Shown: positions 3,092-51,557 of the stretch, piece by piece
How positions within the stretch are numbered: position 1 is the stretch's first letter
Layout of the letters: each line of letters opens with the position of its first letter
Source: Haladaptatus paucihalophilus DX253
Lineage (GTDB): Archaea > Halobacteriota > Halobacteria > Halobacteriales > Haladaptataceae
DNA: 64,000 nt
Direction: 5' to 3'
Assembly (NCBI RefSeq): GCF_000376445.1
Contig: NZ_AQXI01000001.1
Span: forward strand, 2,319,734 to 2,383,733
Position numbers and translations under genes: made by a program
Notes under the pieces: generated by a model
What the model was told of the DNA's origin: nothing
Database searches by the model: none
The model's input: the letters and a program-made list of their open reading frames with translations, nothing else

Positions 3092-3233
3092 GGGTCTCAC
3101 TCGTTGGCGAGTCGAACGTTAAGAGCAAACCACTCGGATTTCGACCCGCCCTGTAACGACGTATGGAGCGCCACGTGATTAAAGACAGGCGCGCTATTTC
3201 GGGGTCCGAAATCGCCCGCCTACCGGACCGACG

Positions 3234-4047: not shown

Positions 4048-4052
4048 AAGAA

Positions 4053-4129
4053 TGCCGCCTCCCGGATTTGAAACTACGTCGAGACAGTCGCCTCGCTCCG
4101 CTCCCGCTGCGTCTCGTCTAATTCAAATC
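4053..4129 (-). repeat. tRNA-Phe 3'-end copy with inverted T-arm (hairpin unit 1)
   Basis: Bases 4053-4072 are an exact copy of the last 20 nt of the tRNA-Phe gene at 6011-6084, in the same orientation. The T-arm half GATTTGAA (4065-4072) is repeated in inverse as TTCAAATC (4122-4129), with nested arms CGAGAC/GTCTCG and a TCGCTCCGCTC centre. It marks the left side of the MFS gene. Confidence 0.75.
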
Positions 4130-4208
4130 GCGGTCGGGTGCATGTTAGTTCGCTCCGCTCTCGATGAGTTGGTCGAGGCGACTGACCTCGTGAGTGAGAG
4201 AATCGATG

Positions 4209-5594
4209 TCATCCGGCGCGCTTCTCACTACCTTCGCTCGTCGATGTCGGAATGGCCGTATCGACACGAGAAGCATCCGTATCCGGGCGTGGTTCGGTCG
4301 CATGACCCTCCTTCGATAGTGCTCGGAGCGATAGGACAAGAATGGCTCCGAGGAGCACCAATCCGCCCGCGACGCCGAACGCGACGCCGTAACCGAAGGT
4401 AGCGACCCACCCACCGAGTACCCCACCAATACCACCTGCGATGGCACTGAGGGCCGTGTAGACCCCGAGAACTTCGCCACGGACGTTCCGTGGTGCGAGA
4501 CGGGTGACGATTGCAGTGCCGACGACGGCGATGACCGCCCACGTCAAGCCGATCGCGGCGAGACCGACGCCAGCGGCCCCGAATCCGAGCGTCACGGCCC
4601 CCAAACCGGCCACCAGTGCAGTTCCCGGAAAGAGCACGCTACGAACCGCGAGCGCACCAGATTGAAGGAGCCGAACATCGTATCGCGATGCGAACGTCCC
4701 GACGCCCTCGTAGAGAACCGCGGAGGCGAGACTCGAAGCCAAGTAGAGGGCGAACACCTCCTCGGAGTCGAAGCCGGTCTCTGTGAGAAACAAGGGCAGT
4801 GGTGCCCAGAAGACAGCGAACCCAGTGAAAAAAAGCACGGCGGCAACTAGGTAGGTCGCCAAGGCCGGATTGATCCGGTTGAGGAGTCTGCGCGGATGGA
4901 ACTGTCGGGTGGTCCAGTACAACCGGTTCGGTGAGAACACGAAGGCGGTTCCCTTTATGCCTCGATTTGAGGTCGAGAGGAGTCGCGCAACCTTGCGGAT
5001 TTTTCGTTCGCTCGTGACGTGGGCGCTCGGGTCGGGACGCGGAAGCGACCGGACAGCCCCTATCACGCTCATCCCCGCACTGAGGGCGAACACCCAGAAG
5101 AGCGCGCGAGTGACGGTTTCCTCCCCGACGAGTTGTCCCCCGACAAACGGCCAGATGGTCCCAAGCACGAGACCACCAGCCCAGCCATAGCCCTGATATT
5201 TGTTCAGCACCCCAATACGCTCACTCCACGCGGATTCCGGCGCGTCGTCCACGACCAGCATCGTCAACACGGGTGCGATGGACGAAACGACCAGCCAGAT
5301 GACGGCGTTGGCGACGATGACCGCAGTCACGCTGCTCAACAAGGGAATCGCGGCGAGGAAGATGGCGACGGTAGCGAGTGTTATCACCACCAGTGGCCGC
5401 CGATGGTCGACACGATTGGCGAGTCGGCCGAACACTATCGCTCCCGGGGCACCGATGAGTGCGGCCGTCGCCGCCAAGATACCCAGCTCCACCGTTGAGG
5501 CACCGAGTTCGACGATGTAGAGCGGTATCAGCAGGGACGCACCGCCGAACGAAATCGAACCGAGCGCCCACGAGTAGAGCCACCGTTCTTTCAT
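4209..5594 (-). CDS. MFS transporter
   Basis: A 461-residue integral membrane protein with about 12 hydrophobic helices in two halves joined by a charged loop (about residues 190-245). The first half holds the major-facilitator loop 2-3 signature region (GAIVFGRLANRVDHRRPL). The soluble C-terminal tail (about residues 425-461) is acidic and rich in Ser and Thr. It is a drug- or metabolite-type secondary transporter by fold; the substrate cannot be assigned. The gene stands alone and is bracketed by two related copies of the tRNA-Phe 3' end (4053-4072 and 5711-5730), so it may be the cargo of an old insertion at tRNA-Phe. Base composition is close to the core genome, so any transfer was from a similar host or long ago. 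Confidence 0.85.
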   Translation of the reverse strand: MKERWLYSWALGSISFGGASLLIPLYIVELGASTVELGILAATAALIGAPGAIVFGRLANRVDHRRPLVVITLATVAIFLAAIPLLSSVTAVIVANAVIWLVVSSIAPVLTMLVVDDAPESAWSERIGVLNKYQGYGWAGGLVLGTIWPFVGGQLVGEETVTRALFWVFALSAGMSVIGAVRSLPRPDPSAHVTSERKIRKVARLLSTSNRGIKGTAFVFSPNRLYWTTRQFHPRRLLNRINPALATYLVAAVLFFTGFAVFWAPLPLFLTETGFDSEEVFALYLASSLASAVLYEGVGTFASRYDVRLLQSGALAVRSVLFPGTALVAGLGAVTLGFGAAGVGLAAIGLTWAVIAVVGTAIVTRLAPRNVRGEVLGVYTALSAIAGGIGGVLGGWVATFGYGVAFGVAGGLVLLGAILVLSLRALSKEGHATEPRPDTDASRVDTAIPTSTSEGSEKRAG

Positions 5595-5710
5595 AGTTGG
5601 GACTCTGTATGGATTCCGTATGAATTTGGAGGGTTACGGTTGGAAAGATATCCCTTCGTGGCTGTGATTGGATGATGCCGTTTCTGTTGCTCACGTTGTT
5701 CGCAGGAAAA

Positions 5711-5791
5711 TGCCGCCTCCCGGATTGTGAACTACGCCTGGACGGTCGCCTCGCTATCGCTTGGCGCTACGTCCGGTCTACTTCAAATCCG
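5711..5791 (-). repeat. Degenerate tRNA-Phe 3'-end copy with inverted T-arm (hairpin unit 2)
   Basis: Bases 5711-5726 match the tRNA-Phe 3' end and then diverge slightly (CGGATTGTGAA). The inverse arm TTCAAATCCG lies at 5782-5791, with nested GGAC/GTCC and a TCGCCTCGCTATCGC centre. The following bases also resemble unit 1 (ACTACG..GTCGCCTCGCT), so units 1 and 2 are related beyond the tRNA part. Confidence 0.7.
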
Positions 5792-5806
5792 TTCGGGACC
5801 ACTCTG

Positions 5807-5845
5807 GATTTCAACGCGACTCGCTCCGCTCGTCGGTTTGAAATC
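5807..5845. repeat. Palindromic unit with CTCGCTCCGCTCG core
   Basis: Perfect arms GATTTCAA (5807-5814) and TTGAAATC (5838-5845) enclose CGACTCGCTCCGCTCGTCGG. The arms are again the tRNA T-arm sequence and its inverse. Confidence 0.75.
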
Positions 5846-5852
5846 GCAGAAG

Positions 5853-5940
5853 TGCCGCCTCCCGGATTTGAACCGAAGCAAGACATTCCGGCTCACTCGC
5901 TACGCTCGTTCGCGGGCTGTGTCTTGCAGGGTTCAAAAAT
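5853..5940 (-). repeat. tRNA-Phe 3'-end copy with inverted T-arm (hairpin unit 3)
   Basis: Bases 5853-5874 copy the tRNA-Phe 3' end exactly. Inside are arms GCAAGACA (5878-5885) and TGTCTTGC (5920-5927) around GGCTCACTCGCTACGCTCG, then the inverted T-arm GGTTCAAA from 5930. The inner hairpin is nearly the same as the one beside tRNA-Val at 9516-9566. Confidence 0.75.
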
Positions 5941-5957
5941 CTGCTCGGGTGCAGTTT

Positions 5958-6004
5958 TACGACCGACGGCTCACTCGCTCCGCTCGTTCACATTGTCGGT
6001 CGTA
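5958..6004. repeat. Palindromic unit directly downstream of tRNA-Phe
   Basis: Perfect 10-bp arms TACGACCGAC (5958-5967) and GTCGGTCGTA (5995-6004) enclose GGCTCACTCGCTCCGCTCG. In the direction of tRNA transcription it begins 6 nt after the mature 3' end, so it would be the first structure in the tRNA trailer and may act in termination or 3' processing. Confidence 0.7.
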
Positions 6005-6010
6005 GAAACA

Positions 6011-6084
6011 TGCCGCCTCCCGGATTTGAACCGGGGACAGCTCGATCTTCAGTCGAGTGCTCTCCCAGTCTGAGCTAAGGCGGC
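6011..6084 (-). tRNA. tRNA-Phe (GAA)
   Basis: The minus strand reads as a full cloverleaf of 74 nt: acceptor GCCGCCT/AGGCGGC, D-arm with AGCTCAGACTGGGAGAGC, anticodon stem ACTCGACTGAAGATCGAGC with loop CTGAAGA and anticodon GAA, T-arm CCGGGTTCAAATCCCGG-like, and A as discriminator. No intron is present and CCA is not encoded. The last 20 nt recur at three downstream sites (4053, 5711, 5853), a typical trace of integration at tRNA 3' ends. Confidence 0.95.
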
Positions 6085-9471: not shown

Positions 9472-9510
9472 TTGCATCGCGCAGAATTATGGGTTCGGGC
9501 GGATTCGAAC
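9472..9510 (-). repeat. 39-nt direct repeat, outer copy of the tRNA-Val 3' end (att-like)
   Basis: These 39 bases are identical to 12358-12396, which covers the last 21 nt of tRNA-Val and 18 nt beyond its 3' end. Such repeats arise when an element integrates at a tRNA 3' end. The two copies bracket about 2.85 kb of AT-rich DNA. Confidence 0.8.
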
Positions 9511-9581
9511 TACGTGCAAGACATTCCTGCTCACTCGCGTTGCTCGCTCCGCGGGCTGTGACTTGCTTCGTTCGAACCGCC
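9498..9581. repeat. Hairpin unit built on the tRNA-Val T-arm copy
   Basis: The T-arm copy GGCGGATTCGAAC (9498-9510) is mirrored by GTTCGAACCGCC (9570-9581). Inside, GCAAG (9516-9520) pairs with CTTGC (9562-9566) around CTGCTCACTCGCGTTGCTCG. The inside closely matches unit 3 beside tRNA-Phe. Confidence 0.7.
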
Positions 9582-9591
9582 GAACGTTTCC

Positions 9592-9639
9592 TTTCGTGGC
9601 CTCGGTGGTTCGCTTCGCTCACCACGAAATGCCACGAAA
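9592..9639. repeat. Palindromic unit with TTCGCTTCGCTCA core
   Basis: Perfect outer arms TTTCGTGG (9592-9599) and CCACGAAA (9632-9639), inner arms GTGG/CCAC, and centre TTCGCTTCGCTCA. It is another member of the family listed in the findings. Confidence 0.7.
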
Positions 9640-9861
9640 ATCCAATGGGTTGGACTAATCCAGATTCCTCGGACGGCTCAGCCATCAGTTCTCCAGCGTT
9701 GCAAGCCCTCAAACGAGGGTTTGGGATTCGGGTTCTGTCGCCCTCGATAGGACTCAACTATTGGATCAGACCTCGACCCCCTTGACCCGTTGACTGCGAA
9801 AGAAATGTCTCTACTTTGTAAATAATTCTGATGATATGATGTAAAAAGATATGGGGATCAG
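9640..9861. other. Intergenic DNA without a convincing gene
   Basis: About 220 nt between the hairpin units and the first island gene. A small CCCTC/GAGGG hairpin is present near 9709-9722. No supported coding frame was seen. Confidence 0.5.
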
Positions 9862-10602
9862 TTACACTAGTGAGATCCACTCATACCACGGACCCGGATC
9901 TGCAGTCTCATAGATCCGTGTACCCGCGATATCGTATGTGTACGACAACGTTCCCGTGCTCTCGACACCGATATCTCCACTTTGATATTCGTTGCCATTT
10001 GGCGCATAATCTTTGCTTGGGTCAAGGTTGGTGGCAACGACATCGACACGAACGCCCCTTGCAGTGTCTTGGGAGTCCGACCAACCAGAGTTGGTAGTTA
10101 AATGTGAGCGATCCCACGTGATCTTACCATATGGCTCATTGTCTTGTTTTACTGTTGAAGTCGGACCAATATCTAGAACGTATCCCTGCTCTGATGTCAC
10201 TGAGAATGGACCAATCGCTGCACTTGGTTGGATGACCAAGCCATGGGAAACCCACTCGTCATTATCGGGGTGTGGGTATTCGAGATAGGCCGGTTCGCTA
10301 ATAGACTTGCCGTCCGGGGCCGTTGTCGGTAAGACATTGATCGAATGTGTAAACTCACACTGATAGATGTAGTCGCCGTATTCATATGGATTCGAAGGTT
10401 TGTCGGAAAACCAGATCTGCTGAACCCATTTATTTCTGCCTTGTGATGGGAGTTGATAATACCGTGTCTCACCGATCTCTCGGTCATATCCGCTCGTACC
10501 ATACGCAATCTCACAGGTCGTCGTATAGCTTTGCCCTCCCTGGGAGCTAGTATTGCGTAGGGGAACGGTTCCTGTCGTAATCGGATGTATATCTTTACTC
10601 AT
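9862..10602 (-). CDS. Island protein of unknown function, partner of the Tat-exported protein upstream
   Basis: A 246-residue protein without a recognisable family, signal peptide or membrane helix. It is rich in Tyr, Ser, Thr and Gly, with a beta-rich look: repeated short strands such as SYTTTCEIAYG, DYIYQCEFTHSINV, GYVLDIGPTSTV and TLSYTYDIAGT. Cys residues in CEIA and CEF could pair if the protein leaves the cell. Its start is 2 nt after the stop of the 10605-11228 gene, so the two form one operon. The DNA is AT-rich and lies inside the tRNA-Val repeats. It may travel with, or bind, the exported partner; no function should be assigned. Confidence 0.7.
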   Translation of the reverse strand: MSKDIHPITTGTVPLRNTSSQGGQSYTTTCEIAYGTSGYDREIGETRYYQLPSQGRNKWVQQIWFSDKPSNPYEYGDYIYQCEFTHSINVLPTTAPDGKSISEPAYLEYPHPDNDEWVSHGLVIQPSAAIGPFSVTSEQGYVLDIGPTSTVKQDNEPYGKITWDRSHLTTNSGWSDSQDTARGVRVDVVATNLDPSKDYAPNGNEYQSGDIGVESTGTLSYTYDIAGTRIYETADPGPWYEWISLV

Positions 10603-10604
10603 CG

Positions 10605-11228
10605 TTATTTGTTGAGTTTATTGGCAGCTGGGTGGTACTCCGTACGCTCGCCATATTCGACCTGCTGTCGCAGTTTCAGCGAGTGTTTGATTGACTTACG
10701 TGCCTTTGCTTTCGTCGTGAATTCTTCGACCGGCTCGAGCGCATAGCCAAGACCGTGCCGTTCATCTGGATACTTGAATACACCAGTGAGGTTTTGTGCA
10801 TCGTGAATCTCAATACTCAGCGGTACTATCTTGTTGCTATCAGACCCAACCGCTTTCGAGGTGGGAACTTGTTTTCCGAAGTTCTTCGACCGGTCTTCGT
10901 AAATGGTGGAGCTTGGAACAGTTGTGGAAGAGAATCGATTGACCGGGTTTAGCTTTGCAAGTGGGACCGTTACTTTTTGCTCTTTTGTATTGATGATACC
11001 TGTTCGATTATTCAGCTGAAACCGACCTGAGATTTCATCGCCAGATTTGTTGATAATTGCGGATGCTGGCTCGTATATCTCTCTAGTAACGGGATCGTAG
11101 GTGAAACCCACATACTGAGAGCCCTTCTTTGCACTGGTGATCCCGGTACCTGCTACGATACCAAACCCACTCGCACCGATTGTCTTGAGGACGGTACGCC
11201 TATTTTTATGGCTATCTTTTAACGCCAT
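10605..11228 (-). CDS. Tat-exported protein of unknown function
   Basis: A 207-residue protein with a twin-arginine signal (NRRTVLKTIGASGFG, hydrophobic core to about residue 31, then SAKKGS). The mature part begins with QYVGFTYDPVTREIYEPAS, a theme I recognise from haloarchaeal exported proteins of unknown role. The rest alternates beta-like stretches with a basic C-terminus (KAKARKSIKHSLKLRQQ), unusual for a haloarchaeal secreted protein. It is the first gene of a two-gene operon with the 9862 gene and is transcribed away from a very AT-rich divergent promoter region. It could be an effector, toxin-like or surface protein; none of these is proven. Confidence 0.75.
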   Translation of the reverse strand: MALKDSHKNRRTVLKTIGASGFGIVAGTGITSAKKGSQYVGFTYDPVTREIYEPASAIINKSGDEISGRFQLNNRTGIINTKEQKVTVPLAKLNPVNRFSSTTVPSSTIYEDRSKNFGKQVPTSKAVGSDSNKIVPLSIEIHDAQNLTGVFKYPDERHGLGYALEPVEEFTTKAKARKSIKHSLKLRQQVEYGERTEYHPAANKLNK

Positions 11229-11348
11229 GCAAACTATTCAAGAAATAATAAAAATTAAAATTTTTATAATTTTAATATATAAATATATATTTGAGAATAG
11301 ATTGCAGCTCAAATAAATTCGGTAGATTTTATATCTCGTTCACTCGTA
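11229..11348. promoter_or_regulatory. AT-rich divergent promoter region of the tRNA-Val island
   Basis: 120 nt separate the Tat-protein operon (minus) from the lipoprotein gene (plus). The stretch 11240-11295 is almost only A and T, with overlapping inverted segments such as AAAATTAAAATTTT and several TATATA runs. TTTATATC lies about 20 nt before the GTG at 11349 and fits a TATA box for the plus-strand gene. Confidence 0.5.
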
Positions 11349-11792
11349 GTGAAGTATGAAATGCGCTGTACTCGCCGGTTTTTTGGAATCACCGCACTCA
11401 CTGGAATCTCATCCCTTGCAGGATGTTCGGATTTCCCTTCATTACAGAAATCGAACCCAGTTCAAGCCGGAGGGGTTATTGTAGAAAACAATCACTCTTT
11501 TCCTCACGTGGTTGCTATTCGGGTTACGAGAGCACCGGCTAATGAACCGATTGCAGGAACCTTCTCACACACATCATTCACGATCCAATCGCACAAGCGA
11601 AAGGCCGTTCACGAATTTCTACGTTGGGAAGGTACCTACATAGTTGAATGTCGTTTGTTATCGGGTGCATCAAAAACTTCGATGAAAATAACACTTCAAA
11701 AGAGAGATGGAAAAATACGGGGGGAAAATATTTCCTTTAAAATAGGTAGTGGGGGGCAGTTGACATCGAGCAAAGTAATGGCTCTGGAATAA
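11349..11792 (+). CDS. Tat/lipobox lipoprotein of unknown function
   Basis: A 147-residue protein with signal CTRRFFGITALTGISSLAGC: twin Arg followed by a lipobox (LAGC), so the mature protein is probably anchored by a lipid on the Cys. The mature domain is a small beta-rich unit (GGVIVENNHSFPHVVAIRVT, FTIQSHKRKAVHEF). It resembles many short haloarchaeal lipoproteins that have no assigned role. GTG at 11349 or ATG at 11361 can be the start; both keep the signal. It diverges from the Tat-protein operon inside the tRNA-Val repeats. Confidence 0.7.
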   Translation: MKYEMRCTRRFFGITALTGISSLAGCSDFPSLQKSNPVQAGGVIVENNHSFPHVVAIRVTRAPANEPIAGTFSHTSFTIQSHKRKAVHEFLRWEGTYIVECRLLSGASKTSMKITLQKRDGKIRGENISFKIGSGGQLTSSKVMALE

Positions 11793-12236
11793 ATTCTCAA
11801 CTTAAGTAAATTATATCCTCGATTGTGGCGTCTGATTACTACTAACACTGTCGGTGCGTCGAACGTTTCGATTTGTCCACTTTTTGGAAACCCTGACGGA
11901 GCAAAAGCCGTTTCCCGTGATGTTGGGAGTACGACTGAAGACAAATAATACAACCCCATTTTTCTTCTATTTGACTAAACTACTACTCGTAATTCAGTTG
12001 TGTCATCAATCGTGAATTGATCAATAAAATTGACGCTGCAGGTCACGCAATCGGCGATTGATTACCTCCTATCGAACCGTCGGCTCGCAGTGAAGGCAAG
12101 ACAGGAGCGACCCGAGGAGACTGAATGGTTGAACTCAGAAGTGGTTGAAACTAGTCTCCGACCCCAAAAGCAGAAAATAACGGATAGAAGCCCTGTAGGG
12201 CACAAATCCGTTGGCTCAAAATCGTGCAGAATGTGG
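11793..12236. other. Inner end of the tRNA-Val island, no convincing gene
   Basis: About 440 nt without a recognisable gene. A plus-strand frame from 12030 runs into the repeat at 12237 and looks random. An inverted pair CGGAT/ATCCG with nested AGCCCT/GGGC at about 12181-12210 could be a transcript-end hairpin. No integrase fragment was recognised. Confidence 0.4.
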
Positions 12237-12312
12237 ATGGGTTCGGGCGGATTCGAACGACGCCCGGACATGCTCACTACGTTGCGCGTGCCCGGTCTAC
12301 TTCCAATCGCCC
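12237..12312 (-). repeat. Second tRNA-Val 3'-end copy with hairpin
   Basis: Bases 12237-12258 copy the tRNA-Val 3' end. The T-arm start GGGCG-ATT is mirrored by AATCGCCC (12305-12312), with a nested GCCCGG/CCGG pair and GCTCACTACGTTGCG in the centre. The bases just before it (GTGCAGAAT) also resemble the flank of the 39-nt repeat. Confidence 0.65.
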
Positions 12313-12326
12313 TCACGAGAATTTTC

Positions 12327-12367
12327 CGCGATGCGGTGACTCGCTTCGCTCGTCACGTTGCATCGCG
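12327..12367. repeat. Palindromic unit directly downstream of tRNA-Val
   Basis: Perfect arms CGCGATGC (12327-12334) and GCATCGCG (12360-12367), nested GTGA/TCAC, centre CTCGCTTCGCTCG. It begins 9 nt after the tRNA 3' end in the direction of tRNA transcription, just as the unit at 5958-6004 does for tRNA-Phe. Confidence 0.7.
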
Positions 12368-12375
12368 CAGAATTA

Positions 12376-12450
12376 TGGGTTCGGGCGGATTCGAACCACC
12401 GACCTCGGCCTTGTAAGGGCCGCGTCATAACCAACTAGACCACGAACCCG
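12376..12450 (-). tRNA. tRNA-Val (TAC)
   Basis: The minus strand folds as a 75-nt cloverleaf: acceptor GGGTTCG paired with CGAACCC, D-arm with GGTCTAGTTGGTTATGACG, anticodon stem CGGCC/GGCCG with loop CTTACAA and anticodon TAC, T-arm with GGTTCGAATCC, and A discriminator. No intron and no encoded CCA. Its 3' end is part of a 39-nt direct repeat found again at 9472-9510. Confidence 0.95.
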
Positions 12451-35061: not shown

Positions 35062-35261
35062 TGTCTGATATCGTGCAACAACGTATGAATGGGCTGTGGA
35101 TAGAAGACAGTCACGCACTTGGAGAAAAATAGAGTAGTCTTGACTGACGTAGCTCCATGGACCCGAATCGGCAGCCGATTAGTCGGCCTGATTCCCTGTG
35201 CTTCAACCCACCAAGGGTACTTCTGAAACTATATACGTCCCAGCTCACAATAAATACGAAA

Positions 35262-42533: not shown

Positions 42534-42747
42534 ATGATGACATACACCTATGTCCCCGCTTAGTCCCCGTCCCTAGCATGTGCGGTGTGACGACTAGGAA
42601 GTGGGTGAGAATAGTGATTTTCTGTGGGTTGATCCGAGGTTCGCACTTCCAGAACGATTGCAGTCGCTAGGGAACACGAAGCCCTCGTTCGCTTGCAAGG
42701 AGGTGGTGTTGGTTTGTCTATGACTGCAATTACAGACGTCACTAAAA
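42534..42747. other. Intergenic DNA upstream of the permease gene
   Basis: Promoter-side region of the APC permease operon, about 210 nt, with moderate AT content. No gene or clear motif. Confidence 0.4.
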
Positions 42748-42873
42748 CCGCAACCGCACCGCGACGGTCACTCCCTCCCCAACCGATTCCTTCGCATTCG
42801 CTCAGTCATCCCTCGCGTGATAACCAAGCAGGCCCTCGGCCGCGATGGCCGAGGGCCTGCTGGCGCACGCGCC
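42748..42873 (-). repeat. 126-nt inverted repeat, left copy (A)
   Basis: Read on the minus strand, this copy differs from 47719-47844 at only three of 126 positions by my reading. It contains a strong hairpin (AGCAGGCCCTCGGCC / GGCCGAGGGCCTGCT with 5 nt between) near 42832-42862, followed by GGTTATCACGCGAGGGATGA. It bounds the ychF-dgcA-dgcN-HTH block. Confidence 0.85.
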
Positions 42874-42979
42874 ACGGCGGTTAGTCAGTAGCGCTCATCC
42901 CGGTTTTCCGAATGGCGCGCGCTGGCGAGGGGACGAGGACGGTACGTCTGAGTCCCCTCGCTGAAGCCGTGCGAAGGAC

Positions 42980-43031
42980 GACTGAGCGAATGCGAAGGAG
43001 TCGGTTGGGGAGGGAGTGGCCGTTGCGGTGC
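42980..43031 (+). repeat. Partial third copy (B) of the inverted repeat
   Basis: From GACTGAGCGAATGCGAAGGA to GTTGCGGTG, this copies the right half of the 126-nt unit in plus orientation with a few changes. The hairpin half is absent. Confidence 0.7.
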
Positions 43032-43073
43032 TGTGCTGGGTGGGACTGAAAGGGGCCGTCCGCTCGCGCGCTT

Positions 43074-43148
43074 GCGTGGTTGCTGTGCGGGCCACTATTC
43101 TGGCCGACCGTGGCGGAGAGGCCAGAATATCCTGCACAGCAACCGCGA
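43074..43148. repeat. Long imperfect hairpin with repeated GCGAGCGTGG flanks
   Basis: GGTTGCTGTGC (about 43078-43088) pairs with GCACAGCAACC (about 43135-43145), and TATTCTGGCC pairs with GGCCAGAATA inside. The flanking GCGAGCGTGGCGGGGGCTTT occurs at about 43147 and again at about 43220; related pieces lie near 47843 and 47913, next to copy C. Confidence 0.6.
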
Positions 43149-43358
43149 GCGTGGCGGGGGCTTTTGGAGACTACTTGTCAGTGTTTTTGGGGGCGTTAGC
43201 CACGGATTTTTCTCGAAGCGAGCGTGGCGGGGGCTTTCGAGGGCTGTTTCTCAATCGCTGAAATCACGCTGAACGCATAATCACGGCTAAGCAAGCGTAC
43301 CGAACCACGAAATGGGGGAAGAATACAGGAGAGAAAAATCAACTAGCAGAGTCCGTCG

Positions 43359-44552
43359 TTACTGACTCGTGGAGACGATTTCCACGACGGAACGGTGGTC
43401 CAACTCGGAACTCGAACCGATTTGGCGCTTGCTCCGGCAGTCGATGCCGTGGAGGAACCCATCTCCGATATCGGAGTGCAGGTGGTACGCGAAGTCCTCG
43501 GCCGTCGAACCGCCGGGGAGGAGGAAGCAGTCGCGGAAGACGCCCTTCTCGCTGGCGCTGCCGTTGGCCGACCCGGGGAAGACGGCGATGAGGTCGAGTT
43601 CGTCGAACAGCGCGGCTTCGAGGGCGCGCTGGACGCCCGTCCCGTCGAACTCGTTGGTGAACTCCCGAATCTGGGCGAGGCCCCCTTCCTGTTCCTCGCT
43701 CACGTCGCCCGTGATTTCGAAGTCCGAATCTCCGGCGTCGTAGTCGATGACGCCCTGTTCGGCGGCGTTCTTGAGCGCCTTCTCGGCGTGGGCGCTGGCG
43801 GGGATGACGGTCAGGTGTTCGTACTCGGGGTCCGAGGTGATTTCCTCGTAGTTCGCCCGCGCCGCGGGGGTGTCCATCTTGTTCGCCGCGATGACCATCG
43901 GCTTGGTGCGCTTGCGAATCTCGCGGGCGAGTTCCTGGCGGTCCTCGTCCTCCCACGTCTCGGGGTCGAGGTCGAGACCGAGCGAGAGGATGACCTGCTT
44001 TATCTCGTCCTTGTTCGTCTTGAACGCCGACATCTGTTCCGCGAGGTCCTCCTCGATGTGTTTCTCCTCCCCGGCGTAGCCCGAGCGGAAGCGCTCGATG
44101 CCCTTCTCCAGGATTTCGAGGTACCACATGTCGAGTTCGTTTTCGAGGAAGTCGATGTCGTCGCGGGGGTCGTGGCCCTCGGTGGGTTCGCCCTCGATGT
44201 CGGTCTTGCCGGAGAAGTCCACGACGTGGACCAACACGTCGGCCTCGTTCAGGTCCGTGAGGAACTGGTTGCCGAGGCCCTTGCCCTCGTGTGCGCCCGG
44301 GATGAGTCCGGCCACGTCAACGAGTTTCGTCGGGACGTAGCGCGTGCCCTCCTCGCAGAAACCGACGCTGGGCGTGCAGGACTCGTCGAATTCGGGGGCG
44401 GCGCACTCGACGCGGGCGTAGGCCTCGCCGATGGACGGGTCGATTGTCGTGAAGGGGTAGGACCCCTCCGGCACGTCGTTCATCGTCGCGGCGTTGAAGA
44501 AGGTCGATTTCCCCACGGAGGGTTTTCCGACCAAGCCGATTTTGTAACTCAT
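43359..44552 (-). CDS. ychF: Obg-like GTPase/ATPase YchF
   Basis: A 397-residue P-loop protein. G1 is GLVGKPSVGKSTFFNA, the G2/G3 region has YPFTTIDPSIGEAY and VDVAGLIPGAHEGKGLGNQF, G4 is NKMDTP, and the C-terminal TGS domain ends RQIGSSSELDHRSVVEIVST. YchF proteins bind ribosomes and often prefer ATP over GTP. It is a lone gene, with the repeat-rich region downstream. Its length is typical for archaeal members. Confidence 0.93.
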   Translation of the reverse strand: MSYKIGLVGKPSVGKSTFFNAATMNDVPEGSYPFTTIDPSIGEAYARVECAAPEFDESCTPSVGFCEEGTRYVPTKLVDVAGLIPGAHEGKGLGNQFLTDLNEADVLVHVVDFSGKTDIEGEPTEGHDPRDDIDFLENELDMWYLEILEKGIERFRSGYAGEEKHIEEDLAEQMSAFKTNKDEIKQVILSLGLDLDPETWEDEDRQELAREIRKRTKPMVIAANKMDTPAARANYEEITSDPEYEHLTVIPASAHAEKALKNAAEQGVIDYDAGDSDFEITGDVSEEQEGGLAQIREFTNEFDGTGVQRALEAALFDELDLIAVFPGSANGSASEKGVFRDCFLLPGGSTAEDFAYHLHSDIGDGFLHGIDCRSKRQIGSSSELDHRSVVEIVSTSQ

Positions 44553-44662
44553 TAGGCCGGAGTGGGTGATTGGTGGCTAAAGGGGTTTTCAAACGGTGAC
44601 ACGTCTGTCGAATGATACCGCGTCACTCGGGGTCACTCGGGGTCACGCGGTTGACCGCCGAG

Positions 44663-45718
44663 TTACTCGATTCCGTTCGGCACGACTCCGTGCCCCGCCC
44701 CCGAAATGTCGATTGTCGGTCCTCCGTCCGACGGAATCACGTCCTCCGCGATGAGGAGGTTGCCGTCCAAATCGACGTGCGAGAACGACCCGATTCCGGA
44801 GACGAGGTGGGCGCTGGCGTGGATTCCGATGGCGCTTTCGAGCATGCATCCGACCATCAGTTCGACGTTCGCGGCTTCGGCTATCGAGGCGATGTCCCGC
44901 GCGGCGAGGAGTCCCGACTTGCCGAGTTTCACGTTTATCACGTCCGCCGCGTCCTCGCGGACGATTCGAATCGCATCCTCCGGCGTGAACACCGCCTCGT
45001 CCGCCGCAATCGGGACCGATACGGCGTCCCGCGCTCGCGCGAGTCCAGTTACGTCCGCCGCGGGGGTCGGCTGTTCGACCAGTGCGAGGTCGATGCCCCG
45101 CGATTCGAGTTGGTCCACGAACGCGACGGTTTCCTTCGGCGTCCACCCCTGATTCGCGTCCACCGTTAGTTCCGCGTCGGGTGCGCCCTCGTGCACCGCG
45201 GCGACGCGGGCGACGTCCTCCGCGACGGTCGTCCCCGTCTTCACCTTCAACTGGTCGAACCCGCGGTCCGCCGCCCGCGCTGCGCCGTCCCGCGCGTCTT
45301 CCGGTGGCATGATGCCGATGGTAAAGTCGGTCGTCACGGAGGTAGGCGCGCCGCCGAACAGTTCCGAGAGGGCCATCCCCCGTTCGCGGCAGTAGGCGTC
45401 GAGAATCGCGGTTTCGACCGCGAACAGCGCCGACACCATGCCGGGAAACGTCTCTCGGACTTCGGTAACGAGGCTTCGATAGTCGGCGAGGGACTTTCCG
45501 TCGAGCAACGTCGTCGCGGCGCGAGCGGTTGCGAGCGCCGCCTCCTGTGTTTCACCCGTCACCGGCGTCAGGGGTGAGCCTTCGCCGTAGCCGGTCACGT
45601 CCTCGGTTTCGACCGTCACCAGCACGTTGCTCGCCCGATGTTGCGTGCCGAGCGAGATTTCGAACGGCTCCCGGAGCGGCAGGTCGAGCGGTTCGACCGA
45701 CACCCGTTCGATTCGCAT
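44663..45718 (-). CDS. dgcA: Enolase-superfamily epimerase, probable N-acetyl-D-glutamate racemase
   Basis: A 351-residue mandelate racemase/enolase-type protein. Catalytic Lys158/Lys160 (KVKTG), metal ligands Asp187 (VDANQGW), Glu215 (VEQP) and Asp240 (AADE), and Lys264/Lys267 (KLGKSG) are all in place, as in dipeptide epimerases. Its ATG overlaps the stop of the upstream DUF1611 gene by one base. This pairing corresponds to the DgcN-DgcA route for D-glutamate breakdown described in marine proteobacteria and haloarchaea, in which DgcN N-acetylates D-Glu and DgcA converts the product to the L-form. A role as L-Ala-D/L-Glu epimerase is the main alternative. Confidence 0.78.
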   Translation of the reverse strand: MRIERVSVEPLDLPLREPFEISLGTQHRASNVLVTVETEDVTGYGEGSPLTPVTGETQEAALATARAATTLLDGKSLADYRSLVTEVRETFPGMVSALFAVETAILDAYCRERGMALSELFGGAPTSVTTDFTIGIMPPEDARDGAARAADRGFDQLKVKTGTTVAEDVARVAAVHEGAPDAELTVDANQGWTPKETVAFVDQLESRGIDLALVEQPTPAADVTGLARARDAVSVPIAADEAVFTPEDAIRIVREDAADVINVKLGKSGLLAARDIASIAEAANVELMVGCMLESAIGIHASAHLVSGIGSFSHVDLDGNLLIAEDVIPSDGGPTIDISGAGHGVVPNGIE

Positions 45719-46755
45719 TACAGCGCCTCGCGGACCGACGCGAGGAGGTCGTCCGCGCCGCCTTCGTCGTAGACGTTCGCCGCAGGGACGGAGTAGTCGA
45801 TTTCGGCGGGGTCGGCCCACGTCGAAACGGCGGCGACCGTCGCGTCCGAGAGTTGTTCCACGAGGTGCCGCTCCGCTTCAACGCCCGCGACCGGCCACTG
45901 GTCGAAGTGGGTTCGCCGGTCGCGGTCGGGGTCATCGACCAGCACGACCGCATCGGGCCACGCGCCGTGCAGGAGTCCGAGCGTGACGCTCGAATAGGCG
46001 CGGTGGGTGAGCGAGGCTTGGCCCTCCACGAAGACGATATCGTGCTCCTCGGTGACGGCCGACACGAGGTCTTCGACCACGCCAGCGGTGAAATCCGCCG
46101 GAACGCGGTCGATGACGACGCCGCGGTGCGCGCCGACCATGATTCCCGTCTGGCCGGTCGCGACCCATCCGGCGTTCAGTCCGGCGCGCTTGGCGGCCCG
46201 ATAGAGTTCGAACGTCGTCGTCCGCTTGCCGACCGCACAGTCCGTCCCGGCGGTCAACACGATTTGTGCGTCTGCTTCGTCCACGGTCCCGTCGCCGACG
46301 CGGAGGTCGTCCTCGCCCGGCGGCTTTCGCACGTCGAAGAGGGTGGCGCCGTGTTCGTCCGCGAGCGTTTGCCATCGCTCCTGCTCGGAGAGGAAGACGT
46401 GCAGTCCGGAGACGATATCCAGCCCCGCGCGGATGGCCTCCTCGATGTCGCTCACCCACTCGTCCGGTAGCGCACCGCCAGCGGGAGCGACCCCGATGAC
46501 GAGCGCCTCGGCATCGGACGCGCGTTCGAGCGCGCCCTCGGTCGAGGAGACTATCGGTACGTCGCGGACGTCCGCGCGTCCGAGAACGTCGCTGGCGGCT
46601 TCGTCGGCGTGTGTCGAGTCGATGACGGCCCGTGCGTCGAACAGTTCGCTGTGCATGACGACGCCGTTGGCCGTCTTTCCGTCCATCGTTCCGAACGCTC
46701 CCTCGGCGAGAACGATTGCTGGAGCGGGGGCGTCGAACGCGTCCCGGAGGTTCAT
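45718..46755 (-). CDS. dgcN: DUF1611 P-loop protein, probable D-glutamate N-acetyltransferase
   Basis: A 345-residue DUF1611 protein. The N-terminal Rossmann-like half has VLAEGAFGTMDGKTANGV and VIGVAPAGGALP; the C-terminal half has the P-loop TAGTDCAVGKRTTT followed by GWVATGQTGIMVGAHRGVVI and VEGQASLTHRAYSSV. It is the first gene of a two-gene operon with the epimerase (1-nt overlap). Family members of this type are named DgcN, an N-acetyltransferase for D-glutamate. Start ATG 46755 fits the family. A hairpin-like inverted repeat lies about 35 nt upstream, and a divergent regulator gene follows. Confidence 0.8.
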   Translation of the reverse strand: MNLRDAFDAPAPAIVLAEGAFGTMDGKTANGVVMHSELFDARAVIDSTHADEAASDVLGRADVRDVPIVSSTEGALERASDAEALVIGVAPAGGALPDEWVSDIEEAIRAGLDIVSGLHVFLSEQERWQTLADEHGATLFDVRKPPGEDDLRVGDGTVDEADAQIVLTAGTDCAVGKRTTTFELYRAAKRAGLNAGWVATGQTGIMVGAHRGVVIDRVPADFTAGVVEDLVSAVTEEHDIVFVEGQASLTHRAYSSVTLGLLHGAWPDAVVLVDDPDRDRRTHFDQWPVAGVEAERHLVEQLSDATVAAVSTWADPAEIDYSVPAANVYDEGGADDLLASVREAL

Positions 46756-46789
46756 GTGCTACACAGGCGCATAGCGGGGCAAAACATTA

Positions 46790-46809
46790 CCCCCTTTCAT
46801 AGAAGGGGG
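46790..46809. promoter_or_regulatory. Inverted repeat upstream of dgcN
   Basis: CCCCCTT (46790-46796) and AAGGGGG (46803-46809) around TCATAG, 35-54 nt before the dgcN start. It overlaps the expected promoter and may be an operator. Confidence 0.45.
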
Positions 46810-46848
46810 GCCGACGCCCGGTCCCGATTTCAGAGCCGTGCCCATGTC

Positions 46849-46877
46849 AACGTATGTCATTCCCCTTGCCATACGTT
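46849..46877. promoter_or_regulatory. Perfect 8-bp inverted repeat before the HTH gene
   Basis: AACGTATG (46849-46856) and CATACGTT (46870-46877) with a 13-nt spacer, 31-59 nt before the ATG of the regulator at 46908. The right arm runs into TTTT, which may be part of the TATA region. It fits a site for a dimeric regulator, perhaps autoregulation. Confidence 0.55.
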
Positions 46878-46907
46878 TTTGCTCGTCTCATCCGTGTATC
46901 ACATCAG

Positions 46908-47597
46908 ATGACCACAGCGGAGCACGCCGGACTTCGGGTGACCCTCGACATCTGGCATCCCGACTGCTGGACGCTCGAAGTCACCGAGGGCCGGGCGGCG
47001 GGACTCCTCGGCCACGGCGTCCACACCATCGACGGACTGGCGACCGGGCGGTTCACGGTCTACGGCAACACGCGCGAGGAGGTGGACGAACTCGTGGCGG
47101 CGATTCGGGATTCCGACCTGACCGATTCCGTGTGGGAAACCGACCATCCGCACGCCACCGAGGACTCCATCGCGTTCGGCAGCGCGAGCCGGGGTATCGT
47201 CGTCCACTACGACCTCGGCAACAGCATCAACGACGCGCTGGTCTCGCGCGGGTTCATCCCCGACGAACCGGTGCGGATGTACGGCGGGCGTGAGTATTGG
47301 ACCGTCATCGTCGAGGTCGAGAAGGACGAACTGCACGACCGAATCGAGGCGGTCTGCGAGGAGATGGACGCCGAAATCCGCGTCCGTCACGTCGCAACCG
47401 CCGAAGCAGGCGCTGGCGTCCTCCGCACCGACGACCTCTCGGAACGCCAGCGCGAGGTGTTCGAACTCGCCCGCCAGCGCGGCTACTACGACTGGCCGCG
47501 GCACGTGACGGCATCCGAACTCGCCGAGGAGATGGACGTGTCCAAAACCACGCTCCTCGAACATCTGCGGAAAGCCGAGGCGAAACTGCTCGGGTGA
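46908..47597 (+). CDS. Bat-type (HTH-10) transcriptional regulator, divergent to dgcNA
   Basis: A 229-residue protein. The N-terminal part (residues 1-165) is an alpha/beta sensor-like domain (LRVTLDIWHPDCWTLEVTEG, YGGREYWTVIVEVEKDEL), and the C-terminus is the bacterio-opsin-activator HTH: LSERQREVFELARQRGYYDW, then VTASELAEEMDVSKTTLLEH and LRKAEAKLL. It lies divergent to dgcN with 152 nt between starts, which suggests control of that operon. The ATG at 46908 is used rather than the upstream in-frame ATG at 46854, which would include the inverted repeat. Confidence 0.85.
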   Translation: MTTAEHAGLRVTLDIWHPDCWTLEVTEGRAAGLLGHGVHTIDGLATGRFTVYGNTREEVDELVAAIRDSDLTDSVWETDHPHATEDSIAFGSASRGIVVHYDLGNSINDALVSRGFIPDEPVRMYGGREYWTVIVEVEKDELHDRIEAVCEEMDAEIRVRHVATAEAGAGVLRTDDLSERQREVFELARQRGYYDWPRHVTASELAEEMDVSKTTLLEHLRKAEAKLLG

Positions 47598-47718
47598 TAT
47601 TTTGTATCATTCAGTATATTTCAGTGCTCTTTAGTGTGTTCTAGTATCTCTACAGCGTTGGCGAATCGATACGCGAAAATCCGAACGTGAAACGAGGGGA
47701 ATCCGCATAAAATACCTC
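47598..47718. other. T-rich region after the HTH gene
   Basis: TATTTTGTATC, CAGTATATTTCAGTG and TCTTTAGTGTGTTC follow the stop codon. Such T-rich DNA is usual at archaeal transcript ends. No gene. Confidence 0.4.
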
Positions 47719-47844
47719 GGCGCGTGCGCCAGCAGGCCCTCGACCATCGCGGCCGAGGGCCTGCTTGGTTATCACGCGAGGGATGACTGAGCGAATGCGA
47801 AGGAATCGGTTGGGGGGGGAGTGGCCGTCGCGGTGCGGTTGCGG
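47719..47844 (+). repeat. 126-nt inverted repeat, right copy (C)
   Basis: Inverted relative to 42748-42873 with about 98% identity. It is followed by GCGGGCGGGGGCTTTCAGGG and, near 47910, by GCGAGCGTGGCGG, both similar to the repeats beside copy B. Nothing in it looks coding. Confidence 0.85.
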
Positions 47845-48047
47845 GCGGGGGCTTTCAGGGTCGTCTCCGTAGCTGAAATCGAACGAGAACCAAAATCAGA
47901 AGCCACTCGTAGCGAGCGTGGCGGTGTTTTTCGAGAACGTCCCCCGTCAACGCACCCCGATTCTCCTCCAAATCTTTATATATGATACCGGGACCAAACC
48001 GGTCAGTGCCCGACGAATCGCTACGCAACCGGTCGCCGAAAACCCGC
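47845..48047. other. Repeat-flanking DNA downstream of engB
   Basis: Contains the short GCGAGCGTGGCGG-type repeats and a TATATA stretch (about 47975). No gene recognised. Confidence 0.4.
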
Positions 48048-48777: not shown

Positions 48778-50157
48778 GTGTGTCGTGTTCGGGATGTGCG
48801 TCTCGTGGAAATCGCCATCCCGCTGGGGGAACGGGAGCTGGTCATCGAAACGCTGGAAGCGAGGGATATCGACTACTACATCACCGAGGAGACGAGCGGA
48901 CGTGGGGGAAGAGAGGACTACGCCGCGATTATCACGTTTCCGCTGCCGCAAAACGCGGTGCAACCCGTCATCGACGAACTCCGCGATGTCGGACTCAGCG
49001 AGGAAGCCCACGTCATCATCATCGACGCCGAGGTGGACGTCTCGACGCGTTTCGAGCGACTCGTCGAGCGCTACACCGCGAAACGCGGTCGTCGGATTCG
49101 CATCGCCCGCGAGGAGATTCGCATCCACGCCCGCGAACTCTCGCCGAGCCTCCGAACGTTCGTCACGATGACGATCGTGAGCGCGGTCGTCGCCACGGCG
49201 GGGTTGTTGCTCGACTCTCCGGCGGTCGTCGTGGGGTCGATGGTCATCGCGCCGCTGGTCGGCCCGGCGCTGTCCGCCAGTATCGGAACGGTCCTCGACG
49301 ACCGAGACCTGTTTCGACGTGGCGTGCGGTTACAGGTCCTCGGCGTCGTTCTCGCGGTAGCGAGCGCCGCCGCCTTCGCCACGCTCGTTCGGTTTATCCC
49401 GCTGTTTCCGCCGGGGACGGACGTGACGCGAATTCCGGAGGTCGCCATTCGAATCTCCCCCGATTTCCTGTCGCTCATCATCGCGCTCGGCGCGGGAATC
49501 GCCGGTATCGTGAGTCTGTCGGCCGGTGCCTCGACCGCTCTCGTCGGCGTCATGATCGCCGTTGCGCTCATCCCGCCCGCCGCCACGGTCGGCATCGGCA
49601 TCGCGTGGGGCGAACCGGTCGTGACCGTCAGCGCGGGCATCCTCGTGTTGGTCAACCTGTTGGCCATCAACCTCTCCGCCCTCCTCACGCTCCGTTACAT
49701 GGGCTATCGGCCGAAAGAGTGGCTGAAACTCCAACGTTCCAACTGGGAGACGGCCAAACGGGTATCTCTCCTCATCCTCGTTATCGTCCTCCTGTCGGCC
49801 TTCCTCGGCGGGGTGACGTACTCGTCGATTCAGGACGCGCAGTTCGAACGGAGCGTTCGGACAACGACCGACGCCTTGCTCGAACTGCCGCAATACTCCG
49901 GGGGAGAACGGCTCGAAGTTGATGTCCGGTACGGGCCGTCCGTTCCGCTTCCTCGGAAGTACCGCGACCCCGCCGTCCCGTTTCATCGGCCACGGGAGGT
50001 CATCGTTACCGTCGGTAAACCGACGAACGAACGGTATCCCGGACTGGCGGAACGGCTTCGCGCCCGTCTCTACCGACGGACGGGCCGAGACGTCTCCGTT
50101 CAAATCCGTTACGTCAGCATCGACGAAGCGCCTCGCCGCGGTATCGAGAGAAATTGA
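48778..50157 (+). CDS. DUF389/TIGR00341 membrane protein, copy 1
   Basis: A 459-residue protein. Residues 1-115 form a cytoplasmic alpha/beta domain (LVEIAIPLGERELVIETLEA, FPLPQNAVQPVIDEL), then about six membrane helices (TAGLLLDSPAVVVGSMVIAP, LIIALGAGIAGIVSLSAGAS, LVGVMIAVALIPPAATVGIG), then a C-terminal soluble domain. The function of DUF389 is not known. GTG 48778 is the outer start; GTG 48796 (MRLVEIA) aligns better with copy 2. The tandem copy follows after 65 nt. Confidence 0.88.
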   Translation: MCRVRDVRLVEIAIPLGERELVIETLEARDIDYYITEETSGRGGREDYAAIITFPLPQNAVQPVIDELRDVGLSEEAHVIIIDAEVDVSTRFERLVERYTAKRGRRIRIAREEIRIHARELSPSLRTFVTMTIVSAVVATAGLLLDSPAVVVGSMVIAPLVGPALSASIGTVLDDRDLFRRGVRLQVLGVVLAVASAAAFATLVRFIPLFPPGTDVTRIPEVAIRISPDFLSLIIALGAGIAGIVSLSAGASTALVGVMIAVALIPPAATVGIGIAWGEPVVTVSAGILVLVNLLAINLSALLTLRYMGYRPKEWLKLQRSNWETAKRVSLLILVIVLLSAFLGGVTYSSIQDAQFERSVRTTTDALLELPQYSGGERLEVDVRYGPSVPLPRKYRDPAVPFHRPREVIVTVGKPTNERYPGLAERLRARLYRRTGRDVSVQIRYVSIDEAPRRGIERN

Positions 50158-50222
50158 CTGACATGTTGATATGAACTAACCGACTATCGGCCCGCGATTA
50201 TATCAATCTGCAAACCCCATCG

Positions 50223-51557
50223 GTGACTGTGCGACTCGTACAGGTATCCATCCCGACGGGCGAGCGAGAAACGGTCGTCGAGACGCTCGACTCCGAGGGA
50301 ATTGATTTCTTTCTGACCGACGAAACGGGTGGTCGCCGTTATACCGCGATTGCGACGTTTCCGCTCCCGCAGAACGCCGTGCAGCCGGTTATCGACAAGC
50401 TTCACGATGCGGGACTGAGCGACGAGGCTCACACGGTCATCATCGACGCCGAGACGGATACGTCCCGACAGTTCGAACAACTGGCGAAACGCTACGAGGC
50501 GGAAAACGGCGCGGACCGCATCGCGCGCGACGAAATCCTAACCGCGGCGCGGGAACTGTCCCCGCGGTTGCGGACGTTCGTCTTCATGACCGTCGTGAGT
50601 GCGGTCGTCGCCACGGCGGGGTTGTTGCTCGACTCTCCGGCGGTCGTCGTGGGGTCGATGGTCATCGCGCCGCTGGTCGGTCCGGCGTTATCGGCAGGCG
50701 TTGGCACCGTTTTGGACGAAAGCGCCCTGTTCACCCGCGGCGTCAAACTGCAACTGCTCGGCGTCACCGTGGCCATCGCCAGCGCGACGTTGTTCGCATT
50801 CTTCGTCAGAGTTCTCTACCTCTTTCCACCGAACACGGATATCACGGCAATATCACAGATAAGCGGGCGGCTGACTCCGGATTTCCTCTCGCTCATCGTC
50901 GCGCTCGGTGCGGGTTCGGCGGGCGTTATCAGTCTGGCCGCGGGCGTATCGGTCGCCCTCGTCGGGGTCATGATCGCCGCGGCCCTCATCCCGCCCGCCG
51001 CCGCCGTCGGTATCGGCATCGCGTGGGGGAGTCCGGTGGTCGCGTTAAGTGCTGGGGTTCTCGTCCTCGTCAACGTCCTCTCCATCAACCTCTCGGCCAT
51101 AGTGACGCTCCAGTACATGGGGTATCGGCCGAAGAACTGGTTCAAACTGGAGCGCTCCCGAGAGGAGGCCATCAAACGAATCGGGGCCCTCGTCGTCGCC
51201 CTCGCCGTTCTTTCGGTCTTTCTCGGCGGCGTTACCTACTTCTCGTATCAAGGCGCGCAGTTCGAGCAGGGAGCAGACAGGGCGGTGACGAACGTCTTCG
51301 AGCAGCCGCGGTATCAGCAGGCGGAACGGCTTCAGATGCAGGTCCAGTACCGACAGACGTTCCCGCTCGGCAAGACTACCTACACGCGAAACCTCCCGTT
51401 CCGCGAACCACATCGCGTCGTGGTCACCGTCGGTCGTCCGCGGGGCGAGCAGTACCCGGATCTCGCCGAGCGAATCTACGACCGAATCGCCACTCGGACG
51501 GGTCGCACGGTCGGGGTTCAGATTCGGTACGTCGAAACGGACGACGTGTCGGCCTGA
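50223..51557 (+). CDS. DUF389/TIGR00341 membrane protein, copy 2
   Basis: A 444-residue paralogue of copy 1 with the same plan: VRLVQVSIPTGERETVVETL, then the helices with TAGLLLDSPAVVVGSMVIAP, and a soluble C-terminus (IGVTYFS-like, then TVGVQIRYVETDD). It starts at GTG. An 80-nt stretch (50601-50680) is identical to 49183-49262 in copy 1, although flanking codons differ. This suggests recent gene conversion or a nucleotide-level constraint. It is likely transcribed with copy 1 or from its own promoter in the 65-nt gap. Confidence 0.88.
   Translation: MTVRLVQVSIPTGERETVVETLDSEGIDFFLTDETGGRRYTAIATFPLPQNAVQPVIDKLHDAGLSDEAHTVIIDAETDTSRQFEQLAKRYEAENGADRIARDEILTAARELSPRLRTFVFMTVVSAVVATAGLLLDSPAVVVGSMVIAPLVGPALSAGVGTVLDESALFTRGVKLQLLGVTVAIASATLFAFFVRVLYLFPPNTDITAISQISGRLTPDFLSLIVALGAGSAGVISLAAGVSVALVGVMIAAALIPPAAAVGIGIAWGSPVVALSAGVLVLVNVLSINLSAIVTLQYMGYRPKNWFKLERSREEAIKRIGALVVALAVLSVFLGGVTYFSYQGAQFEQGADRAVTNVFEQPRYQQAERLQMQVQYRQTFPLGKTTYTRNLPFREPHRVVVTVGRPRGEQYPDLAERIYDRIATRTGRTVGVQIRYVETDDVSA

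Follow-up and report, generated by a model that had tools for sequence, protein, structure and literature searches.

Do the two long inverted repeats that frame a 4.8-kb block of genes in Haladaptatus paucihalophilus DX253 serve as the arms of an invertible switch, or do they belong to something more widely dispersed? The block, with ychF, dgcA, dgcN and a regulator gene between repeat copies A and C, lies in the window, the whole 64,000-nt stretch analyzed here (contig NZ_AQXI01000001.1, positions 2,319,734 to 2,383,733). The original prediction had described 126-nt non-coding inverted repeats some 4.8 kb apart, differing at about three positions and holding a 15-bp hairpin. This description was borne out by a repeat search of the window, which returned an inverted pair (42748-42873 / 47719-47844) of 126 nt, 98% complementary, with 4,845 nt between. 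Copies A and C differ at three of 126 positions (25, 98 and 106; 123/126 identical, 97.6%), and the 15-bp stem AGCAGGCCCTCGGCC/GGCCGAGGGCCTGCT is perfect in copy A with one mismatch in copy C. The repeats are also non-coding, and none of 69 family sites falls inside a predicted gene. A and C are not a private pair but copies of a widespread haloarchaeal intergenic repeat.

Membership in a family is evident from searches at several ranges. Within the window, the 19-nt motif ACTGAGCGAATGCGAAGGA occurs three times (0.03 expected), and a third, partial copy (42971-43034, plus strand, 91%) is part of copy A's full unit. BLAST with copy C retrieved 33 matches in the own genome (G000), 32 of them on the main chromosome contig C1 and one off the chromosome. 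A covariance model built from 52 half-units of the repeat found 31 half-units there at E<=5.8e-6, distributed over 25 sites (six paired, 19 with a single half). All 25 lie on C1, which makes up 68% of the assembly; the chance of this is ~7e-5 if sites are random by length. The survey of other genomes that the original prediction had called for yielded model matches in 83 of the 292 class genomes, spread over 32 of 77 genera, counts that are low given stricter filters and the few candidates scored per genome. BLAST matches were found in 25 of the 40 genomes of a relatives search, and a phylum-wide draw gave model matches in 8 of 294 genomes, all from one order; each of these figures includes the own genome. 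Plasmids of Halorussus, Halobaculum, Haloarcula and Haladaptatus carry pieces of the family in stretches without a listed gene, and the plasmid search also returned four short and weak Rhizobium matches. A phage origin was rejected, as the phage collection held no match to the family, and so was a known RNA family, as no Rfam model matches the repeat. No paper recognized as describing this repeat emerged from a literature search, and the main text of a survey of repetitive extragenic palindromic (REP) sequences in bacteria and archaea (PMC12306157) contains no occurrence of "halo".

Reading outward, a half-unit consists of a GGCGCGYGC box, a hairpin, CGAGGGATGA, a linker that varies and may contain small inserted hairpins, ATCGGTTGGGGAGG, GCGGTGCGG, a tail of type A or B, and a GGCGGGGGCTTTCG box; the upstream letters of CGAGGGATGA pair with the GGCGCGYGC box. 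Halves come in two types, termed K and K', and a doublet has one of each, back to back. This held for 17 of 17 usable rows (~12 distinct sites) with a spacer of 39-44 nt, an 18th listed row (L034) having been dropped for a negative spacer, an artifact. Tail B is a stem-loop of 117-124 nt, and the 21 copies aligned share invariant letters close to each end; six of 27 modules were left out of this alignment and its inner stems are misaligned, so that only ends and single folds are claimed. Copy A forms the K half of a complete doublet (42732-43166), and copy C is a lone K half. The elements are given below, with G001-G008 denoting the eight other Haladaptatus genomes compared:

42732..42747, minus strand: tail module of type A with GACGTCTGT, outer end of copy A
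42748..42873, minus strand: copy A, K-type half-unit (box GGCGCGTGC, hairpin, CGAGGGATGA, GGTTGGGGAGG, GCGGTGCGG)
42806..42873, minus strand: structured core of copy A, the genome's top covariance-model match (83.9 bits)
42874..42913, no strand: 40-nt spacer between half-units, near-identical at the orthologous site of G004
42914..43034, plus strand: K'-type half-unit, divergent partner of copy A (model match 42914-42981, 65.9 bits)
43044..43166, plus strand: tail module of type B, a 123-nt long stem-loop GACTGAAAGGGGCC...GGCGGGGGCTTTTG
47719..47844, plus strand: copy C, solitary K-type half-unit, 123/126 identical to copy A
47844..47857, plus strand: terminal box, GGCGGGGGCTTTCG-like, outer end of copy C

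Lone GGCGGGGGCTTTCG-like terminal boxes with at most two mismatches also occur at window positions 3207, 30510 and 37485, apart from any half-unit, and may be chance matches or remnants.

The hairpin of the half-unit is real and is kept by compensatory change. Sequence anchoring gave 93 half-units, of which 14 lacked a box within 125 nt; the remaining 79, with a K box, all fold strongly, and the 52 of them that measure 67-71 nt entered an alignment for which selection used two sequence boxes and not the fold. Across 20 pairs, 91.6% of cells are paired, compared with 74.3% in shuffled alignments, and 188 cells are changed on both sides vs 66.5 shuffled, with 0 of 500 shuffles as high; sequence relatedness inflates numbers of this sort. 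A two-pair step in the stem is a tandem G.A/A.G in 27 of 52 half-units, standard-paired as a unit in 24 and otherwise in one. Mismatches over 18 stem pairs comprise 67 G-T and 10 A-C (binomial p 1.7e-11, relatedness ignored), with ratios of 23:5 in K and 44:5 in K'; counted for the inner helix by itself, they are 34 and 7. This excess of G-T over A-C in K and K' alike implies that the outward-reading strand is the one that folds, and that strand does fold better in 33/35 K' halves, 33/44 K halves and 26/27 tail-B modules. A simple process of "palindrome repair" would neither favor G-T nor keep the G.A step, while RNA and single-stranded DNA alike would do both.

Between the two repeats of the window stand four genes:

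43359..44552, minus strand: YchF/Obg-like GTPase (Pfam)
44663..45718, minus strand: MR/MLE enolase-superfamily enzyme, DgcA-like (Pfam; the start in the open reading frame list lies further upstream, at 45820)
45718..46755, minus strand: DUF1611 protein, DgcN-like (Pfam)
46854..47597, plus strand: HTH_10 regulator, divergent from dgcN (Pfam)

The names dgcA and dgcN are carried over from the original prediction and are presumed here, Pfam assigning MR/MLE and DUF1611 only. For the DUF1611 protein, identity is 92% with the counterpart in Haladaptatus sp. DYF46 and 80-84% with those in three other named species.

According to the original prediction, recombination between A and C would flip this block and leave the dgcNA operon and its regulator pointing the other way. 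A switch of this kind, changing expression, would draw on arms that are long and 98% alike, on an orientation of the block relative to engB that differs between species, and on inverted copies that frame the same operon in G005 and, weakly, in G003. Gene order speaks against it. The window and G004 share the order w38324, peptidase, permease, copy A, ychF, dgcA, dgcN, regulator, copy C, engB. In G001, the genes between and including regulator and peptidase, six in all, are reversed relative to engB, and the element remains between ychF and the permease; G003, G005, G006 and G008 have dgcN-dgcA-ychF oriented as in G001, the other three genes being absent there, and in G002 and G007 engB lies outside the stretch compared. 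Because the order ychF-element-permease-peptidase is identical in the window, G004 and G001, the inversion carried the permease and peptidase along, and A was not a breakpoint. The remaining junctions of this larger segment, w38324/pepD in the window and pepD/engB in G001, hold no repeat copy, and the stretch left of the G001 regulator has no counterpart in the window. As judged from gene order, the larger block appears to have been inverted, with copy A inside it, in the line of the window and G004, and the history of the locus would include steps beyond this inversion. The A-C block alone is flipped in none of the eight other Haladaptatus genomes. No recombinase was found among the six block and neighbor proteins scanned. 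Both repeats, moreover, lie outside the 3' ends of the block's terminal genes, and promoters would therefore move with their genes; a flip would not obviously be an expression switch, since the promoter region of dgcN and the regulator would be carried along in it. We regard an invertible switch as very unlikely.

The arms do seem to have exchanged sequence. At the regulator-side site, G001 and G004 have a K' half, while the window has a K half 97.6% identical to A; the region of A itself is ~75% identical to its orthologue in G004. Because the site is K' in both relatives, and C in the window matches A better than A matches its own orthologue, C was in the simplest account overwritten from A, and gene conversion is the preferred reading of how alike A and C are. 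In G005 (inferred to be H. litoreus), dgcN-dgcA-ychF is framed by inverted 209-nt copies, 92% alike, at L155:6900-7108 and 11044-11252, and in G003 a 49-nt inverted pair (86%) surrounds the same block. The two G005 arms are 84.5% alike over 297 nt, more than the 68.9% over 720 nt between the orthologous ychF-side regions in G003 and G005; a similar exchange seems to have taken place between the G005 arms. Inverted arms around the dgc operon thus recur and probably exchange sequence. Crossing over between them would flip the block, and the sole inversion seen did not use A. What survives of the predicted recombination is the exchange suggested by these signs of conversion, and what does not is A as a breakpoint and a flip between A and C.

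At other sites, turnover is visible in the comparison with G004. Many own-genome sites share their flanks with element sites in that genome and differ from them in hairpins, halves and inserts; at site L003/L160 a half stands in the opposite orientation, and at L026/L169 just one of the genomes carries some 115 nt of inserted hairpins. Many sites have thus been inherited in place across species, and what turns over is the hairpin sequence, the tails and the small inserts. Own-genome sites (n=22) lie between convergent (9), co-directional (8) and divergent (5) genes, compared with 2, 8 and 3 among window gaps of at least 250 nt, and these counts are too few to conclude on a possible terminator role. 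Among the 20 of 44 neighbor proteins that were scanned, 19 belong to ordinary gene families and one has no match; none is a transposase.

Several repeats are adjoined by an open reading frame (ORF) family of 62 residues (L006:874-1059, L013:1861-2046, L018:1875-2060, L021:1069-1278, and also in L162 and L171). Most pairs are 85-95% identical, the L021 copy ~55-65%, and no Pfam family was assigned. A similar palindrome lies upstream of the start in the two copies compared.

Enterobacterial ERIC and Neisserial NEMIS-type repeats are intergenic imperfect palindromes able to act as RNA structures; they occur in unrelated hosts and are likened to the present family by general description, not by sequence. 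The nearest parallel is with REP doublets, that is, bacterial interspersed mosaic elements (BIMEs) and REP doublets forming hairpins (REPINs). As described in PMC2817692, PMC3116915 and PMC3733652, these share inverted extragenic palindromes with a spacer, a preference for unlike partners, G-T stem pairs and mosaic arrangements, and the original prediction of a REP-type element stands to that extent: doublets are inverted in 17/17 K/K' rows, and 0/69 sites are genic. The present family differs in being archaeal and in its dimensions, a 68-nt core and 120-nt tail stem-loops vs REPs of 20-40 bp. REP/BIME families usually exceed 100 copies (PMC2817692), whereas only 31 half-units at 25 sites occur here. 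They are also usually tied to a Y1 transposase; in a search of nine genomes, none was found in G000 or G003, and none of 11 matches in other genomes is near the motif. Neither a GTAG nor a CGTC tag was seen by eye in the half-unit alignment, the unpaired end being AGGGATGA. With abundance, transposase and tag all failing to agree, the repeat is not filed as a REP family.

Closer in host are the PATEs and SMRs of Haloquadratum walsbyi. As described in PMC3119063, these are likewise haloarchaeal, transposase-free and palindrome-bearing, and small repeats insert inside larger ones, like the inserts between modules here. The same paper describes PATEs as lacking an inverted organization and sharing ends with IS605-type elements, and SMR-A as ~110 bp, commonly >95% alike and targeting PATEs. 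Descent from IS605/Y1 elements or PATEs was rejected, as the motif is near 0/11 Y1 and 0/3 TnpB loci (the TnpB search covered one genome).

On balance, we lean towards reading A and C as half-units of an old, non-coding chromosomal repeat of the Halobacteriales that works like REP doublets. Its units would have spread long ago as non-autonomous elements by way of a single-stranded hairpin, would now be essentially immobile in the Haladaptatus genome, and would be kept similar by gene conversion between copies, with copy C as a conversion product of copy A. If copies convert one another, the arms of the dgc block would pair and recombine on evolutionary time, and inversion of the block would be a rare by-product of that recombination, not a regulatory switch. 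A relic of single-strand transposition is given the edge over a host part because doublets and mosaic tails are typical of such elements. Several observations weigh against this reading, beginning with the low copy number and the missing Y1 transposase. The sites compared yielded neither a clean empty site nor a target duplication; at the L008 site, the element is absent from G008, where the surrounding spacer is too diverged for the junction to be read. In ten orthologous half-units of G000 and G004, 44 changed stem pairs comprise 17 compensatory, 14 one-sided and 13 broken, and turnover is therefore imperfectly structure-preserving; the compensatory changes could also come from conversion by other copies. 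The conversion claim has two lineages as its basis, and on the dgcN side G003 and G005 share 88% of positions over a 321-nt region that falls mostly beyond the arms. A structure that persists without mobility would also be easier to grasp if the units serve the host.

Possible, though doubtful, is a second account in which the repeat is an order-wide family of structured RNAs (or single-stranded DNA sites), with divergent hairpin pairs ~four helical turns apart and a G.A or standard-paired step, selected on the chromosome beside core genes and homogenized by conversion. The narrower proposal that outward transcription of each half-unit and its tail produces a small RNA or an untranslated-region element that serves the host would explain the compensatory change, the excess of G-T over A-C, the unit-wise swap of the G.A step, the folding advantage that all three modules show for the outward strand, the invariant ends of the tail-B stem-loop, and the confinement of the 25 sites matched by the model to the main chromosome, where they neighbor core genes. 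It must contend with a 39-44 nt spacer in which no promoter was recognized by eye, both halves needing divergent starts there, with an equal G-T bias predicted by single-stranded DNA folding, and with orthologous sites that lose or swap halves; we consider it rather unlikely. Miniature inverted-repeat transposable elements (MITEs), moved in trans by a DDE transposase and now decaying, would share the inverted, intergenic and dispersed organization without coding capacity, and MITEs and palindromic elements are common in Haloquadratum (PMC3119063). The unlike halves, the lack of defined termini or target duplications at the sites compared, the absence of a transposase from the scanned neighbors and the near-absence from other replicons (1/33 BLAST matches off the chromosome) make this improbable. 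The fixed 39-44 nt spacing and chromosome-only distribution (P ~7e-5 for random placement by length) would suit a site at which paired copies ~four helical turns apart bind a putative architectural protein that organizes the chromosome, an idea that 19/25 single-half sites and an apparently irregular inter-site spacing leave with very little credence.

Elsewhere in the window, two tRNA genes are adjoined by copies of their 3' ends: 47-nt repeats at 4051, 5709, 5851 and 6009 with the tRNA at 6011-6084 (region 4051-6084), and 42-nt repeats at 9472, 12220 and 12358 with the tRNA at 12376-12449 (region 9472-12449). By sequence, these resemble the duplicated attachment sites of elements that have integrated in tRNA genes. 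Rfam gave one CRISPR-DR24 match (35200-35229, minus strand), which lies in a gene-poor stretch, and two neighboring paralogous membrane proteins (48778-51557), 73-78% identical in DNA blocks, look DUF389-like by eye.

Bacterial repeats of this kind have been studied well, and their archaeal counterparts are poorly known. A fold kept across an archaeal order, without a transposase of the bacterial type, offers a clean case in which to set a host part against an old parasite, and the occurrence of inverted copies at the same locus in two species offers a natural system for exchange between inverted copies in haloarchaea.

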